From Planctomycetota bacterium (GTDB taxonomy: Bacteria > Planctomycetota > Phycisphaerae > Phycisphaerales > Phycisphaeraceae): a DNA stretch of 64,000 nucleotides. The DNA lies in NCBI GenBank assembly GCA_024279865.1, contig JAJRRC010000063.1, positions 1 to 64,000 on the forward strand. Reading direction: 5' to 3'. Below are positions 2,382 through 34,896 of the stretch, one piece after another. The notes under the pieces are model-generated. The model had not been told where the DNA came from, searched no databases, and saw only the letters and a program-made list of their open reading frames with translations. Numbering within the stretch: position 1 is the first letter of the stretch; the number at the start of each line of letters is the position of its first letter. A program made the translations under genes and the position numbers.

Positions 2382-2387
2382 AAGTTG

Positions 2388-2527
2388 CCAGTCATCAGCT
2401 ATCCGTAAGAACAGAGAAAAAGATGGAGCTTCTTCATCCAAACTGAGAAGAGCATGCTTAAGACGACCTTTGTTAGCGTGCGATCATCACAACGCCGAGC
2501 TCTAAAGTCTTCTGAAGAGCCGGATTC
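2388..2527 (+). repeat. Composite intergenic repeat, copy 1
   Basis: A copy of an approximately 150-bp element found also at 9944-10098 (reverse) and 14348-14501. It starts with TCAGCTATC-type heptamers directly after the gmk stop, followed by an A-rich purine tract, an AACTGA segment, GCTTAAGACGA, then GCGTGCGATCATCACAACG and a hairpin core (CCGAGCTCT...AGAGCCGG, 2495-2520). Order and sequence of the blocks are the same in all three copies. It contains no open frame worth calling. Confidence 0.8.
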
Positions 2528-5769: not shown

Positions 5770-5794
5770 TTTTTCTGGCTGATAACTGACAACT
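5770..5794 (-). repeat. TATCAG-heptamer arm abutting the apt stop codon
   Basis: Read on the minus strand, this is AGTTGTCAGTTATCAGCCAGAAAAA, beginning right after the apt stop. It matches the left arm of the inverted-repeat elements at 34741 and 16636, so it is probably a partial or decayed copy. Confidence 0.6.
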
Positions 5795-7765: not shown

Positions 7766-7769
7766 AGAA

Positions 7770-7808
7770 GTTTTCAGCTATCAGCTATCAGTTTTCAGTC
7801 AGAAAAGA
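7770..7808 (+). repeat. TATCAG-heptamer arm after the murA stop
   Basis: Contains TTCAGCTATCAGCTATCAG followed by TTTTCAGTCAGAAAAGATAAG. It is in the orientation always seen just after a stop codon in this window and begins five bases past the murA stop. There is no matching right arm before the next gene at 7858. Confidence 0.6.
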
Positions 7809-7857
7809 TAAGATACGCAGTCTTAATATCCTAATGACTGATCGATGAAAGCTGCGT

Positions 7858-8190: not shown

Positions 8191-8226
8191 AAAAATAGCC
8201 GCAAGCTCATGGCTGACAGCTAGGAA

Positions 8227-9867: not shown

Positions 9868-10269
9868 GATAAAAGTTCCTTAAAAGGGTTTGAGTAAGGC
9901 AAGGTAAGTAAGGGTTGTCGGGAATTAATTTTAAAAGATAGAGGGGAAAATCCGACTCTTCAGAAGACTTCAGAGTTCGGCGTTGTGATGATCGCACGCT
10001 AAACAAGATTCGTCTCAAGCGTTCTTAATCGTCAGTTCAGTTGAGGAAGATATGTCTCTTTGTTTTTTCTTACTGATAGCTGGCAACTGAGAGCTTCAAA
10101 AAAACAGCGTGCGCGTCTTTAGTGAGAGATGGGAGGGCTTGGGCGATTGGTGCGAATGAGACCTTTGTCCGAGGTGGTATCGCGGCCGAAGACGGTAAAG
10201 AAGCTGGATTCAGCGTGTGTCATAGAAGTTTTATCATACCGCGATCAGATCACAATGCAATGAAAAAAT
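9868..10269. other. Intergenic region of about 400 bases, repeat plus unassigned sequence
   Basis: The upstream side of the fucose-isomerase-like gene (9868-9943) could hold its promoter, but I see no clear boxes. 9944-10098 is a composite repeat copy. 10099-10269 has no recognisable gene; a plus-strand frame from 10122 runs antisense into the QueC-like gene and looks like a shadow. No tRNA fold found. Confidence 0.5.
9944..10098 (-). repeat. Composite intergenic repeat, copy 2 (reverse)
   Basis: Reverse-strand copy of the element at 2388 and 14348. Read on the minus strand it runs CTCTCAGTTGCCAGCTATCAG, TAAGAAAAAACAAAGAGACA, AACTGACGATTAAGAACGCT, GCGTGCGATCATCACAACG and the hairpin core CCGAACTCTGAAGTCTTC...AGTCGG. 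All five blocks are in the same order as in the other two copies, so this is one mobile or amplified unit rather than chance matches. Confidence 0.8.
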
Positions 10270-11751: not shown

Positions 11752-14343
11752 ATGGCTAAAACAACCAAAAAAACAGCATCTTCAGCTAAAACACCTTCGG
11801 CCAAAGGCAAGCATCTTGTCATCGTCGAAAGTCCCACCAAAGCCAAGACTATTAATAAGTACCTTGGTCCAGAGTATTTGGTCCTCGCCAGCGTCGGTCA
11901 CGTCCGTGACTTGCCTAGCCGTTCTCCCAAGGGACAAAAACAACCCGTCCCAGGCGTGGACTTGGACAATAATTTCGCACCCACCTACGAAATCTTGCCA
12001 ACCAAAAAGAAAACCGTCGCCCAGCTCAAAAAAGCTGCCAAGGAAGCGGATGAAGTTTGGTTCGCGACTGACCTCGACCGCGAAGGGGAAGCGATTGCGT
12101 GGCATTTGGCTGAGGCACTCAAGGTGCCTATGGACAAGGCAAAACGCGTGGTTTTCAACGCCATCACCAAATCTGAAATCGCCAATGCTTTCTCCAATCC
12201 GCGAACCATTGATGTTAACCGCGTCAACGCCCAACAAGCCCGACGCATTCTCGACCGCATTGTGGGCTATCAGGTTTCCCCTCTGCTATGGAAAAAGGTT
12301 GCAGGCGGCCTCAGTGCCGGCCGCGTCCAATCCGTCGCGGTTCGACTGGTCTCTGAACGTGAAGCAGCCATCGACGCATTCATTCCCGAAGAATACTGGC
12401 GTATCGGCGGCATGTTTACCCTTGACCCAACGCAAGCGTCCACCCTTGCAGACCAATGGAACCAATGGCTCAGCGAAGCCCAAGAAGGCAAAATCCGCAC
12501 GATCAAAGAAAAAAACGCTTGGATCAGTGACCGTCAATGCCTCCAAGGTGAACTTGTCGAAGTTGCTGGCAAACCCTTTAAAACCGACAACCGCTCTGAA
12601 GCTCTGGCCATTGCCACCAAACTGGGCTTTGCCTTAGACGATACCAATGAATGGGAAGTCGCCAAGGCCAAAGGCGTTGATAAAATGCGAGTGGCCTATC
12701 AGGGACACATCGCAAATGCCCCGGATTATGCCATCAAGTCCGTGACCACCAAACGGACCACCCGCAAACCACCACCACCCTTTATCACCAGCACGCTTCA
12801 GCAGGCAGCGGCCAATCGCCTTGGATTCCCCCTCAAGCGAACCATGCGCGTGGCTCAACAGCTCTATGAAGGTATCGATATCCACGGCCGCGAAGGACAG
12901 ACCGGCCTCATTACCTACATGCGTACCGACTCCACGCACCTAGCACCTCAAGCCATCGACATGGCTCGAAACTACATCCAAAGTGAATGGGGCGATGACT
13001 ACCTTCCCGACAAGCCCAACTTTTACAGCAGTTCGAACAAACAGGCGCAGGAAGCTCATGAAGCCATCCGCCCCACCGATGTGCAAATCACGCCCAAACG
13101 CGTTCGCAAAGAACTCACCGAAGAACAATACAAACTCTACAAACTCATCTGGGAACGCTTCCTAGGCGGCCAATCCACCCCCGCCAAATGGGACGCTACC
13201 GCCGTCCTGATTGCGGACAACAAACACGATGCTGTTTTCAAAGCCACCGGGCGAACCCTTGTGTTTGAAGGCTTTTACAAAGCCACAGGCATCCCCAACA
13301 GTGGTGATGAAGCAATCCTTCCACCACTGACTGAAAACCAGCCCACCGGCCCGGTTCAGATTCAGCCGACCCAGCACTTTACCCCGCCGCCGCCTCGCTA
13401 CACTGAAGCATCGCTCCAGAAAAAGCTCGAAGAAGAAGGCATCGGCCGACCGTCCACCTACGCAGCGATCATTCAGACCATTCAAGATCGCAAATATGTC
13501 GAACAGGTGGCCCCCCGTGATCGACGGCTCATGGCCACCGATCTAGGACAAGTCGTCACCGCCAAGCTCATCGAAGGTTTCCCCCGCATCATGGACGTGG
13601 CTTATACCCGTCAAATGGAAGCGGAACTGGACAAGATTGAAGACGAACATCATGAGTGGACCTCGATGCTTCATGATTTCTATGGCCAATTCAAGAAAAA
13701 CTTGGAACAAGCCCACGAAACCATGACCCATGCCAAGGCAGAAATGACCCCCGCGCCGCACAAATGTGCTAAATGTGGTGCTGGGACGGTCTACCGCTTT
13801 GGAAAAAATGGCCGTTTCCTCTCCTGTGATACCTATCCAGAATGTAACTATGCTGCCCCCATCAACCGCGAAGGCGAACCGATGGAGCCGGAGCTGTCAG
13901 ACATCCTCTGCCCCTTTTGTGGCAAAGGCATGACCCGACGGGTGGGACGTTTTGGCCCGTTCTTGGGTTGTGTGGACTATCCCACCTGCAAAGGCATCGT
14001 CAACATTGATACTAAAAAAGGCGTGGTCAAGCTTCCCAAAGCTCCCCCACTCACCACTGACTTGCCTTGCCCCAAGTGTGATGAACCGTTGTACATGCGG
14101 GATTCAAAGCGAGGTTACTGGCTGAGCTGCTCAAAATTCCCCAAGTGTCGTGGTCGTCTCGCATGGTCCAAGGTCGAGGAAGACAAGCAAAAAACGCTCG
14201 AAAATGCCTGGGCCGCTCACCTCAAGGAAAACCCCATTCCTGAAATTCGCAACACGCAAAACGAAGTGCTTGGCGACGACTACATTCCACAGATCCAAGA
14301 AACTGAATCGAGCGACGAAAATCCAAATAACGACGCAGCATGA
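11752..14343 (+). CDS. topA: DNA topoisomerase I (type IA)
   Basis: Relaxes negatively supercoiled DNA through a 5-prime phosphotyrosine. From the ATG at 11752 (AGAGAGAAC upstream) the protein has 863 residues. The TOPRIM domain begins at about 18 (LVIVESPTKAKTI) and contains ATDLDREGEAIAWHL. The active-site block is TYMRTDSTHL with Y389 and R391. Three C-terminal C4 zinc ribbons begin near residues 672, 720 and 770. An alternative GTG start at 11722 would add ten residues without family support. The N-terminus has a Lys/Ser/Ala-rich tail before TOPRIM. The stop is followed directly by a composite repeat. Confidence 0.97.
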   Translation: MAKTTKKTASSAKTPSAKGKHLVIVESPTKAKTINKYLGPEYLVLASVGHVRDLPSRSPKGQKQPVPGVDLDNNFAPTYEILPTKKKTVAQLKKAAKEADEVWFATDLDREGEAIAWHLAEALKVPMDKAKRVVFNAITKSEIANAFSNPRTIDVNRVNAQQARRILDRIVGYQVSPLLWKKVAGGLSAGRVQSVAVRLVSEREAAIDAFIPEEYWRIGGMFTLDPTQASTLADQWNQWLSEAQEGKIRTIKEKNAWISDRQCLQGELVEVAGKPFKTDNRSEALAIATKLGFALDDTNEWEVAKAKGVDKMRVAYQGHIANAPDYAIKSVTTKRTTRKPPPPFITSTLQQAAANRLGFPLKRTMRVAQQLYEGIDIHGREGQTGLITYMRTDSTHLAPQAIDMARNYIQSEWGDDYLPDKPNFYSSSNKQAQEAHEAIRPTDVQITPKRVRKELTEEQYKLYKLIWERFLGGQSTPAKWDATAVLIADNKHDAVFKATGRTLVFEGFYKATGIPNSGDEAILPPLTENQPTGPVQIQPTQHFTPPPPRYTEASLQKKLEEEGIGRPSTYAAIIQTIQDRKYVEQVAPRDRRLMATDLGQVVTAKLIEGFPRIMDVAYTRQMEAELDKIEDEHHEWTSMLHDFYGQFKKNLEQAHETMTHAKAEMTPAPHKCAKCGAGTVYRFGKNGRFLSCDTYPECNYAAPINREGEPMEPELSDILCPFCGKGMTRRVGRFGPFLGCVDYPTCKGIVNIDTKKGVVKLPKAPPLTTDLPCPKCDEPLYMRDSKRGYWLSCSKFPKCRGRLAWSKVEEDKQKTLENAWAAHLKENPIPEIRNTQNEVLGDDYIPQIQETESSDENPNNDAA

Positions 14344-14347
14344 TTTT

Positions 14348-14501
14348 TCAGCTATCAGTTGTCAGCGATCAGTAAGAGAAAGACAAAAGAAACAGACATT
14401 CCTCCGCGAAACTGACGATCAAGCACGCTTAAGACAAACCTTGTGAGCGTGCGATCATCACAACGCCGAACTCTGAAGTCTTCTGAAGAGTTGGATTCCC
14501 C
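14348..14501 (+). repeat. Composite intergenic repeat, copy 3
   Basis: Begins with CAGCTATCAGTTGTCAGCG just after the topA stop, then AGTAAGAGAAAGACAAAAG, AACTGACGATCAAGCACGC, GTGAGCGTGCGATCATCAC and the hairpin core CCGAACTCTGAAGTCTTCTG...AGTTGG (14465-14494). TTGTGA/TCACAA in the fourth block can form a second stem. This is the clearest copy and would serve as query for the family. Confidence 0.8.
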
Positions 14502-16635: not shown

Positions 16636-16787
16636 AGCTGTCAGTGATCAGCTATCAGCAGTCAGTAAGAAATAGGAGCAGAAAAGAGATGGAGAATTTG
16701 GAAAAAACGGGGAACCGGGGGAACCGGGGGAACCGTGTCCGATTCTCTTCTCTTACTGACAACTGATCGCTGACAACTGATCGCTTG
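16636..16787. repeat. Inverted-repeat element with heptamer arms (pyrF upstream)
   Basis: The left arm 16636-16670 (CAGTGATCAGCTATCAG..GTCAGTAAGA) and the right arm 16753-16787 (TCTTACTGACAACTGATCGC...) are imperfect inverted repeats of about 35 bases, roughly 80 percent alike. They flank about 80 bases that include a GAACCGGGG tandem (16711-16734). The same design occurs at 34741-34896. Such paired arms resemble a MITE or a large hairpin; no transposase is present. Confidence 0.7.
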
Positions 16788-16812
16788 AAAAACTTTCATC
16801 GCGGACATTCTC

Positions 16813-16874
16813 ATACCCGATGGGTATATGTTATCTTTTCTTGCTGATGGCTGATAGCTGATGGCTAATCGCTT
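16813..16874 (-). repeat. Short hairpin and single heptamer arm after the BtuC-like gene
   Basis: ATACCC-GAT-GGGTAT (16813-16827) is a perfect 6-bp hairpin. 16838-16874 is a heptamer arm which, read on the minus strand, follows the permease stop codon at 16879 within five bases (AAGCGATTAGCCATCAGC...). The hairpin might help end transcription, but it lacks a clear U-run. Confidence 0.5.
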
Positions 16875-31989: not shown

Positions 31990-32045
31990 TGTTTCAGATG
32001 ACTTTCTCTTGCTGATAACAGACAACTGATGGCTGACAGCTTGAA
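31990..32045 (-). repeat. Heptamer arm just before the squalene-hopene cyclase start
   Basis: TTCTCTTGCTGATAACAG followed by ACAACTGATGGCTGACAGCTTG, then AAAAAGGACC. Right-arm orientation, as seen also upstream of pyrF and hisA on their strands. The AAAAAGGA at its edge may act as the ribosome-binding site of the cyclase gene. Farther out, the segment CTGTTTCAGATGACT resembles the purine block of the composite repeats in reverse. Confidence 0.55.
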
Positions 32046-32061: not shown

Positions 32062-34029
32062 ATGACATTTCCTGTGGTATCTGAACATCTCAATGCGGCT
32101 GTGACTGCCTTGCTGGACCTCCAACAACCAGACGGCTATTGGTGTGCTGAACTTGAGGGCGATTCAATCCTCGAAAGTGAATACATCCTGCTCAAATGGA
32201 TCATCGATCAGGAAAACGACCCCAGACTCCCCCAAATTGCCAACTACCTCCGCAAACTCCAAACTCAAGATGGGTCCTGGGTCCAATACCCCGGCGGCAA
32301 GATCGACCTCAGCGCCACCGTCAAAGCCTACTTCGCCCTCAAACTCATCGGCGATGACCCACAATCTTCCCACATGGTCAAGGCCAAAGAACAAATCATC
32401 GCCCATGGCGGTGCTGAACTGTGCAACAGCTTTACCAATTTCTACCTCGCTGCCCTAGGTCAAATTGACTACAACGCAGTTCCCTCGATTCCGCCTGAAA
32501 TTATCTTTTTGCCTCGCTGGTTTTATTTTAATCTCAGCAAGGTCAGTGCTTGGTCTAGGACCATGATCACGCCGTTGAGCATTGTGACGACCCACCGTCC
32601 GCTGCGGAAAATTCCAAAGAATCTGGGCATCGACGAACTGTACATCGACCATTCCCGTCGTCACAAGCTCATCCCCACAGGCAATACACATCGCACTTGG
32701 ACCACGTTTTTTTATTCGCTGGACCGTTTACTCAAACTGGTCCATAAGTTGGGCATGACCCCGCTTCGTCGTCGGGCGTTGGATCGCATTGAGCAATGGC
32801 TCTTAGATCACACTGAAGATTCCGATGGCGTGGGCGCGATCTTTCCGCCGATGGTTTATATTCTCATCGCACTGCGAGCCAGAGGGTACGCCGACGACCA
32901 TCCCAAAATTCTCGAAGCCCACAAACATCTCGATGACCTTCTCATTCATGACGACGAAAATCAGGAGATTCGCATTCAGCCTTGCTTTAGTCCGATCTGG
33001 GATACAGGCATTGCAGCGTACGCTTTGACCGAAATTGATTTTAAGCAAGGTCAAGATGCTGCTGACCGATGTGCGAGTTGGCTGCTTCAAAAAGAATGCC
33101 GCAAAGTGGGCGACTGGATGGATAATGTTAAACAGCCCGTTGAGCCAGCGGGCTGGTACTTTGAATACAACAACGCTTTTTACCCCGACGTGGACGACAC
33201 CGCCATGGTCGCCATGGCCCTCAAACGCATCGGCGGCGACGAAGCTCTTGCCGCGGCAGAACGTGGCACGCAATGGGTCTTGGCCATGCAAAATGACGAC
33301 GGCGGATGGGCTGCCTTTGACCGCACCGTCGAACGGCCGATTCTCGAACACATCCCCTTTGCCGACCACAACGCCATTCAAGACCCCTCCTGTCCGGACA
33401 TTGTCGGCCGCACGCTCGAATGCCTAGGACACATGGGCTATCGAGCCGATCACCCTGCCGTGATCCGAGCCATTGAATTCATTCGCTCTCGTCAAGAACC
33501 TCAAGGAAGCTGGTTCGGCCGTTGGGGCGTGAACTATGTCTATGGCACATGGCAAGTCCTCGCTGGCCTGGAAGCAGTGCAATGTGACATGCAGCAAGAC
33601 TGGATCAAAAAATCCGCTCAATGGCTCAAACAAGTCCAACAAGCCGATGGCTCCTTCGGCGAATCCTGTGACACCTACGAAGACATCACTCTCATGGGAA
33701 CAGGCGAACCCACCGCCAGCCAAACCGCATGGGGAACCATGGGCATGATGAGCGTCTTTGGCCCCGATGACCCAGCCGTCAAGCGAGGCATCGCCTGGCT
33801 ATGCGAAAAACAATTAACCGAGGACCACCCCACCAGCGGCGACGCGGCAGGCTCTTGGCACGAACCCCAATTCACAGGCACCGGTTTCCCCAAAGTTTTC
33901 TATCTACGCTACCACCTCTACCGACTCTACTTCCCAGTGATGTGTCTGGGACGATGGATGAGAAAAACCTCAGAAGCAACCTGCAAAAAACCGGTGGTTC
34001 AACCTTCTAACGCAACCAGTGCTTCATGA
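32062..34029 (+). CDS. shc: Squalene-hopene cyclase
   Basis: Cyclises squalene to hopene/hopanol for hopanoid membranes. From the ATG at 32062 the protein has 655 residues. The catalytic D-x-D-D-T-A motif is D376-V-D-D379-TA, and several QW repeats are visible (QQPDGYW near the N-terminus, QDGSWVQYPGG, QNDDGGWAAFD, QEPQGSWFGRWG, QQADGSFGE). I preferred this start to the ATG at 32029, because the first 11 codons of the longer version come from a dispersed repeat. The 3-prime end overlaps hisA (opposite strand) by 31 bases. Single membrane-associated enzyme; no squalene synthase genes nearby. Confidence 0.95.
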   Translation: MTFPVVSEHLNAAVTALLDLQQPDGYWCAELEGDSILESEYILLKWIIDQENDPRLPQIANYLRKLQTQDGSWVQYPGGKIDLSATVKAYFALKLIGDDPQSSHMVKAKEQIIAHGGAELCNSFTNFYLAALGQIDYNAVPSIPPEIIFLPRWFYFNLSKVSAWSRTMITPLSIVTTHRPLRKIPKNLGIDELYIDHSRRHKLIPTGNTHRTWTTFFYSLDRLLKLVHKLGMTPLRRRALDRIEQWLLDHTEDSDGVGAIFPPMVYILIALRARGYADDHPKILEAHKHLDDLLIHDDENQEIRIQPCFSPIWDTGIAAYALTEIDFKQGQDAADRCASWLLQKECRKVGDWMDNVKQPVEPAGWYFEYNNAFYPDVDDTAMVAMALKRIGGDEALAAAERGTQWVLAMQNDDGGWAAFDRTVERPILEHIPFADHNAIQDPSCPDIVGRTLECLGHMGYRADHPAVIRAIEFIRSRQEPQGSWFGRWGVNYVYGTWQVLAGLEAVQCDMQQDWIKKSAQWLKQVQQADGSFGESCDTYEDITLMGTGEPTASQTAWGTMGMMSVFGPDDPAVKRGIAWLCEKQLTEDHPTSGDAAGSWHEPQFTGTGFPKVFYLRYHLYRLYFPVMCLGRWMRKTSEATCKKPVVQPSNATSAS

Positions 34030-34740: not shown

Positions 34741-34896
34741 AGTTATCAGCTATCAGCTATCAGTAAGAGAAGATATTAGAATGGAAGCCGAAGATAGGGA
34801 AGTTTCAGAAGAAAATGCCCCTTTTACTTTGGAACGACAAGCATGCTCTTTCTGACTCCCCTCTTACTGATAGCTGATAGCTGACAACTGATAGCT
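34741..34896. repeat. Inverted-repeat element with 29-bp arms (best copy)
   Basis: The left arm 34741-34769 and the right arm 34861-34889 are inverted repeats with one mismatch in 29 bases, built of TATCAGC heptamers and ending in AGTAAGAG. They flank a 91-bp, A/G-rich centre without a gene. Both ends touch genes: it begins 20 bases from the hisA start and ends within 60 bases of the oxidoreductase start. The symmetry argues for a MITE-like unit or a transcribed hairpin. Confidence 0.8.

Follow-up and report, generated by a model that had tools for sequence, protein, structure and literature searches.

Cyanobacterial STRR heptanucleotide repeats form degenerate heptamer arrays between genes, as do the repeats described here, with different unit sequences; we know of no gene-edge rule for them. 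TAACTGA heptamers have been reported from marine Beggiatoaceae, some cyanobacteria and Bacteroidetes, where, in the excerpts of PMC4679880 used here, they sit immediately ahead of start codons and their CTGA strand runs into the gene from the start side. The planctomycete repeats that are the subject of this analysis, hereafter “arms,” share several properties with them as far as those excerpts go: both are intergenic and built of tandem 7-nt units with a CTGA core, both point the CTGA strand toward the start and often end a few nt before it, both change in 7-nt steps, and one TAACTGA array sits right after a stop codon in reverse orientation, which is the polarity seen here (PMC4679880). Unlike in TAACTGA repeats, the triplet of the arms varies freely, the array is bounded by fixed ends that are not repeats, and an interior is often present; the arms also use starts and stops equally and belong to one planctomycete lineage only. 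REPs (the GTAG/CGTC families and the E. coli REPs) are placed <20 bp from stop codons or gene 3′ ends in excerpts of PMC3733652 and PMC12306157, and the same excerpts describe features that the arms share: short length, many copies, intergenic location near 3′ gene ends, and one end that can supply the stop codon. Unlike REPs, the arms use starts as often as stops and have no RAYT-type partner that we have seen, and the GTAG/CGTC-footed hairpin of 20–40 bp that marks REPs and BIMEs is absent from their consensus. MITEs and Correia-type elements (excerpts of the Thiomargarita paper PMC4853749, together with general background) are likewise ~100–180 bp, non-coding, multicopy and lineage-specific, and their inverted ends have a partial counterpart in the arms that face each other. 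Unlike these elements, the arms show no target duplication, many ends are solo, and the ends are variable heptamer arrays that are mismatched within a copy. A literature search with most subscription journals outside its scope turned up no description of these arms from Planctomycetota. The original prediction had put forward strict gene-edge placement as the novelty, which proves only half right. The stop edge is known for REPs and the start edge for TAACTGA repeats; the new part is one family, in a single planctomycete lineage, that uses both edges equally, in one polarity, and whose fixed ends are non-repeat.

What does an arm look like? The window, which is the whole 64,000-nt stretch of planctomycete DNA analysed, contains 14 copies of TATCAGC, as against a mean of 3.9 in shuffled sequence, and none of 100 shuffles reached 14. 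Around these copies the arm is laid out as a T-rich flank, AAG, a series of AGYNRTC units and AGTAAGAG. The unit table lists AGCTATC (87), AGTTGTC (55), AGTTATC, AGCGATC and others. The unit is thus TCAG-N3 with a loose triplet which, read outward from the gene, makes up the arrays at the ends of the repeat; the commonest units, AGCTATC and AGTTGTC, are equivalent to CTGATAG and CTGACAA, so that the array is a tandem 7-nt repeat with a CTGA core whose unit is not TAACTGA itself. When 73 arms were aligned on their ends, the outer end read TTTTTNA followed by AG, with the T-rich flank outside and an A beside the array, and the inner end was a conserved AGTAAGAGAAGA grading into interior sequence that is either unrelated or shared locally. 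Between these fixed ends the 73 arms carry mostly 2–4 units and up to 9. An interior behind the arm is common to the window copies at 2383, 10071 and 14343, and another is common to three copies on contig C14. The pattern CTATCAGCTATCAG with ≤2 mismatches has 309 matches in the genome, compared with 4 for the reversed control, and at score 12 there were 209 window hits versus 5 in first-order random sequence of equal size. Strict arrays, with three exact TCAG, number 44, with none inside genes; of the 41 flanked by genes to left and right, 38 have the outer edge as the nearer one. No Rfam family matched the window above its gathering score. The genome carries several hundred copies, and the family looks like a short interspersed repeat of mobile type, non-coding, that spread in one lineage and ended up filling intergenic gaps; paired copies are mostly ~104–180 bp long and many copies are one-armed.

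The arms of the window are listed in Table 1, with gene identities by Pfam and NCBIfam (for the fucose-isomerase-like gene, a Pfam match below cut-off). All six predicted arms after the stops of gmk, apt, murA, the fucose-isomerase-like gene, topA and the FecCD/BtuC-like gene are present, as are all three oppositely oriented arms before the starts of pyrF, hisA and the squalene-hopene cyclase gene. The window holds further arms at 7829 (weak), 10071, 16754 and 34865, which lie 4, 174, 93 and 57 nt, respectively, from the gene on their outer side.

Table 1. Arms in the 64-kb window and their relation to neighbouring genes
Feature	Position	Strand	Context
Arm	2383..2407	+	Outer edge 1 nt past gmk stop (gmk by TIGR03263)
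Arm	5777..5794	-	Immediately past apt stop (apt by NCBIfam)
Arm	7769..7800	+	3 nt past murA stop (murA by TIGR01072)
Weak partner arm (score 15.7)	7829..7853	-	4 nt ahead of small called gene
Arm	8197..8221	-	5 nt past stop of fucose-isomerase-like gene
Arm	10071..10095	-	174 nt to next stop; outer edge follows T-run
Arm	14343..14374	+	Overlaps final base of topA stop codon
Arm	16636..16667	+	18 nt ahead of pyrF start (pyrF on minus strand)
Second arm of pair 16636-16785	16754..16785	-	Outer edge follows T-run; 93 nt to gene
Arm	16842..16873	-	5 nt past stop of FecCD/BtuC-like gene
Arm	32010..32041	-	Just upstream of likely cyclase start ATG 32062, with AAAAAGG between
Left arm	34741..34765	+	19 nt ahead of hisA start (hisA on minus strand)
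Paired-element interior	34766..34864		Between hisA and Gfo/Idh-type gene
Right arm	34865..34896	-	57 nt ahead of called Gfo/Idh-type start

Placement was measured in 26 stretches of the source genome (a fragmented assembly of 122 contigs, 3.42 Mb), 716 kb with the window counted in. Long contigs were taken because they had been seen in the pattern listing, and contigs 2–21 contributed their first 20 kb regardless of arms. Our own hexamer-based script called 609 genes (85% coding), with exact stop codons and estimated starts. There were 97 arm calls at score ≥12 and 77 at score ≥15. The latter comprise 69 intergenic arms with a gene on either side, 4 beside stretch ends and 4 in called genes, one of these at a gene's last codons (score 20) and the others scoring 15.3–17.4. 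Four weaker intergenic calls were excluded from the placement nulls and included in the region list; one of the four, C38:109761, was also included in the comparison of arm-pair likeness and in the target-duplication test.

The predicted gene-edge preference and fixed orientation hold in the genome-wide scan: over the 716 kb, the outer edge faces the nearer gene in 66 of the 69 strong intergenic arms. Use of the two edges is about equal, with 36 arms on the start side and 33 on the stop side. On the stop side, 20/33 arms lie ≤8 nt from the stop codon, where random placement gives a mean of 1.8 and a maximum of 8 in 10,000 draws; the median distance is 6 nt versus 96 nt under the null. On the start side, 27/36 lie ≤30 nt from the start (null mean 8.5), with a median of 20 nt versus 82 nt. 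Inner arm sides come within 8 nt of a gene at 0/36 stops and 0/33 starts. A second null drew gap lengths from unarmed gene pairs. Against it, arms ≤8 nt from convergent stops number 9/14 (0.7–1.9 expected), and the counts are 11/19 for tandem stops (1.1–3.9 expected) and 9/22 for tandem starts (1.3–4.5 expected); divergent starts, at 2/14, do not depart significantly from this null. With gap lengths taken from relatives, whose gene calling is poor (75% coding), 0.5–1.6 would be expected at convergent stops. Short gaps as the whole cause of edge placement thus fail against both the unarmed-gap and the relatives'-gap null. A target preference for T-tracts fails as a cause of stop proximity, since it predicts 3.4% of arms within 8 nt, compared with the 20/33 observed.

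Half of the stop-side arms >30 nt out (5/10) sit directly behind a hairpin plus T-run, compared with 5% of 10,257 control positions. In the divergent gap at C38:91831, TTGACA comes straight after the A-run that lies past the right arm; by its sequence it looks like a −35 box. The outer arm edge abuts a functional boundary: a stop codon, a terminator or a ribosome-binding region. Within 30 nt upstream of the start, AAAA occurs at 18/27 armed starts versus 98/436 others, and AAAAGG at 7/27 versus 20/436. AAAAAGG had been suggested as a ribosome-binding site carried at the element edge; the enrichment of A-runs at armed starts lends this idea partial support, and the run may either have come with the element or have belonged to the old site. 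For the squalene-hopene cyclase gene, the mechanical ORF start at 32029 falls inside the arm, and an in-frame ATG at 32062 stands behind AAAAAGG; the start is likely to be ATG 32062 rather than 32029. Whatever the origin of the edge rule, arms flag stops, terminators and ribosome-binding sites without the help of a gene finder, and start calls could be corrected from them, as in this case.

Are the arms halves of a paired element? The family had been proposed to consist of inverted-repeat pairs, and as a general description this is not supported: 38 of 56 armed gaps hold a single strong arm with no detectable partner. Fifteen gaps do hold a left and a right arm facing each other. Multiplying counts gives ~2 pairs if arms were independent, so pairing is real. 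Pair mates are barely more alike than arms from elsewhere (mean rank 0.41 over 15 pairs, where 0.5 is no difference). The 28 of 29 matching bases claimed for the pair at 34741–34896 can be recovered by eye if the inner ends are aligned, and this likeness is not special within the family. Because most arms are solo and mates are hardly alike, “inverted-repeat element” is only partly right, and paired terminal repeats were rejected as the unit. We picture an element that is paired, exists in many half copies and evolves by unit turnover. None of the 609 genes is armed at both ends (1.1 expected), and integron-like gene cassettes flanked by arms were rejected on this count.

The arms are best explained, with about as much confidence as doubt on our part, as a lineage-specific, short, non-coding repeat that inserted itself into new sites as it spread and that has its edges up against functional boundaries. 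The comparison that bears on this is at family level: 51 family genomes were searched, of which no other is of the same genus, and the best matches of one window protein are MAGs labelled Planctomycetota or Planctomycetaceae, at ~69–76% identity. With 2 mismatches allowed, the 17-base core ATCAGYTRTCAGTAAGA has 184 matches in the source genome and 0–4 in each of the 50 others; from this contrast, the copies most likely arose after the source lineage split off. Evidence of insertion comes from the gap between mrdA and rodA, genes named after their best NCBIfam matches, which score below cut-off. It measures 162 nt here, compared with a median of 21.5 nt in the 44 relatives with coordinates for both proteins; it is ≤30 nt in 23/44, and exactly 17 nt in 14/44, which include every one of the four genomes from the genus whose RodA is closest. 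Longer gaps, of 191 and 194 nt, occur in 2/44. The element here takes up 132 of the 162 nt, beginning 1 nt past the stop, and the gained DNA includes non-heptad interior. At this one site, judged by gap length, the gap grew by ~145 nt through insertion. Spread by insertion, as originally predicted, is supported by the restriction to one lineage (184 versus ≤4 matches) and by mrdA-rodA, but the gap between hisA and the Gfo/Idh-type gene fails to show it. In the single relative in which hisA and a Gfo/Idh-type gene are adjacent (L040), this gap is 258 bp without arms; the source genome has 232 bp, of which the element makes up 156 bp, so the element did not simply lengthen the gap.

How might such a repeat come to lie against gene edges? 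First, a short element would insert into gaps, with the enzyme supplied in trans. Second, selection would remove insertions in genes, terminators and ribosome-binding sites. Third, leftover spacer between element and gene would be lost, by adjacent deletion or general compaction, until an indispensable base is reached; neither random insertion nor T-tract preference yields the edge placement, so this step is an inference. Fourth, unit number would thereafter drift through slippage. A host function is unnecessary, although the host may have co-opted individual copies, for instance as leader sequence. If the edge rule does reflect spacer loss, the repeats would be a countable record of compact genomes losing DNA down to the last functional base. 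The insertion reading has weak points. There are no target duplications: in 12 short pairs, the longest shared word flanking the element averages 1.9, versus 2.1 in shuffled pairs, so that no excess is seen. No enzyme was found in the Y1 transposase family, the one family searched for a mobilising enzyme. It yielded two Y1_Tnp matches, one of them partial and near a contig end, with no heptad arrays in the examined DNA around either; by sequence, both look like ordinary IS200-type genes, and a REP/RAYT origin is disfavored. Pair mates also lack the near identity that marks the terminal repeats of a young transposon, which counts against this reading.

The placement could instead be set at the moment of insertion, by machinery that recognises the ends of expression units so that copies land at stops, terminators and leaders; suggested cues at gene ends are a hairpin with its T-run, or DNA that is single-stranded or in an R-loop. 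Such targeting gains from an edge placement that greatly exceeds each of the three nulls and from arms that abut terminators where they are not at a stop. It is nevertheless unlikely. TTTT occurs in the 14 nt outside the arm in only 4/23 stop-proximal arms, so the stops revealed no DNA signal in common; the near-equal use of starts and stops (36 and 33) is unexplained by any single known signal; and the search of the Y1 transposase family applies here as well, with no enzyme found. If the edge rule does reflect targeting, a bacterial repeat system would sense gene ends without reading the protein code.

Alternatively, the arms may be cis-acting elements kept by selection, controlling ribosome release or read-through after stops and serving in leaders, or for S1-type binding, before starts. 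The tight spacing to the stop (0–8 nt) and to the ribosome-binding region would fit, and excerpts of PMC12306157 and PMC4679880 propose analogous roles for E. coli REPs and TAACTGA repeats. We regard this as unlikely on several grounds. The two gene ends bear reverse-complementary sequences, and one RNA-binding protein presumably could not read both. Whichever strand is read, the T-run faces the gene, so the arm is not an intrinsic terminator. Genes armed at both ends number zero where 1.1 would be expected, and family members without the motif nonetheless share mrdA, rodA and mreB.

A further possibility is that no element exists and that arrays grow in place, slipping from chance seeds at tolerant sites until they mimic one. 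CTGA-N3 arrays with four exact CTGA and differing spacer sequences occur in 122/392 Planctomycetota genomes (for example, 46/45 versus 0/0 and 116/124 versus 1/0 in the reversed control; other genomes show no excess), which counts in favor of this reading. Slippage also fits an exact difference of one 7-nt unit between arrays of two congeners from another family of the phylum that are ~90% identical (G240 C2, L303, and G217 C21, L334). Growth in place is very doubtful for the arms themselves, however, because non-repeat ends are conserved on both sides of the array, homologous interiors lie behind the arm at different genes (for example, the window copies at 2383, 10071 and 14343), and the mrdA-rodA gain includes non-heptad DNA. 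An assembly or annotation artefact can be dismissed as extremely improbable: the assembly is fragmented (122 contigs) and gene starts are self-called, but the effect is seen at stop codons, which are exact, most arms lie inside long contigs, and the reversed pattern gives 4 matches to 309.

The wider CTGA-N3 arrays follow the edge rule unevenly. In G217, a genome from another family, 20/25 intergenic arrays have their outer edge nearer, and this edge lies at ≤15 nt in 9 (null 4.2). In G333 the rule is absent (outer nearer in 6/13, with 7/20 arrays within called genes), and the G033 and G291 samples contain 4 and 2 arrays, too few to judge. Across 30 single loci from the phylum, where genes were called crudely as the longest ORFs, 15/23 intergenic arrays have the outer edge nearer, and 7/35 arrays lie in called ORFs. 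In the array of the congener pair, the CTGA strand directly follows the stop, opposite to the rule in the source genome. Between the same neighbours there, a ~114-aa gene plus CTGA array is present in one genome and absent from the other, and this is not a clean empty site. The array type CTGAATTCTGACTACTGA or CTGAATTCTGACTTCTGA is recurrent and common in G240 and G217. One might nonetheless propose, as a quite unlikely idea, that CTGA-N3 arrays form one widespread bacterial class, comprising the Planctomycetota arrays and the TAACTGA repeats of Beggiatoaceae, cyanobacteria and Bacteroidetes, in which the CTGA strand runs into the gene from both sides and a shared, putative DNA-level process places or keeps arrays at expression-unit borders.

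Several further short repeat families occupy gaps of the source genome. In all, 126/413 sampled intergenic regions fall in one shared-repeat network, 50 of them with arms. The short contigs C16 and C19 have near-identical intergenic regions (96% over 393 bp), which reflects either a duplication of recent date or a bin that mixes two strains. A ~42-bp palindromic repeat with core GAACTCTGAAGTCTTCTGAAGAGTT is present at 14457–14498 of the window and in ~30 other intergenic places, often without arms; of the 44 matches listed for a 183-base query, most span only this ~42-bp palindromic part. Finally, an intergenic motif with a palindromic core, TTTCATCGCGG-ATATT-TCATACCC-GGGTAT, is found at 16786–16840 of the window, near 17200 on C22 and near 5400 on C38, and is possibly an operator or leader element.
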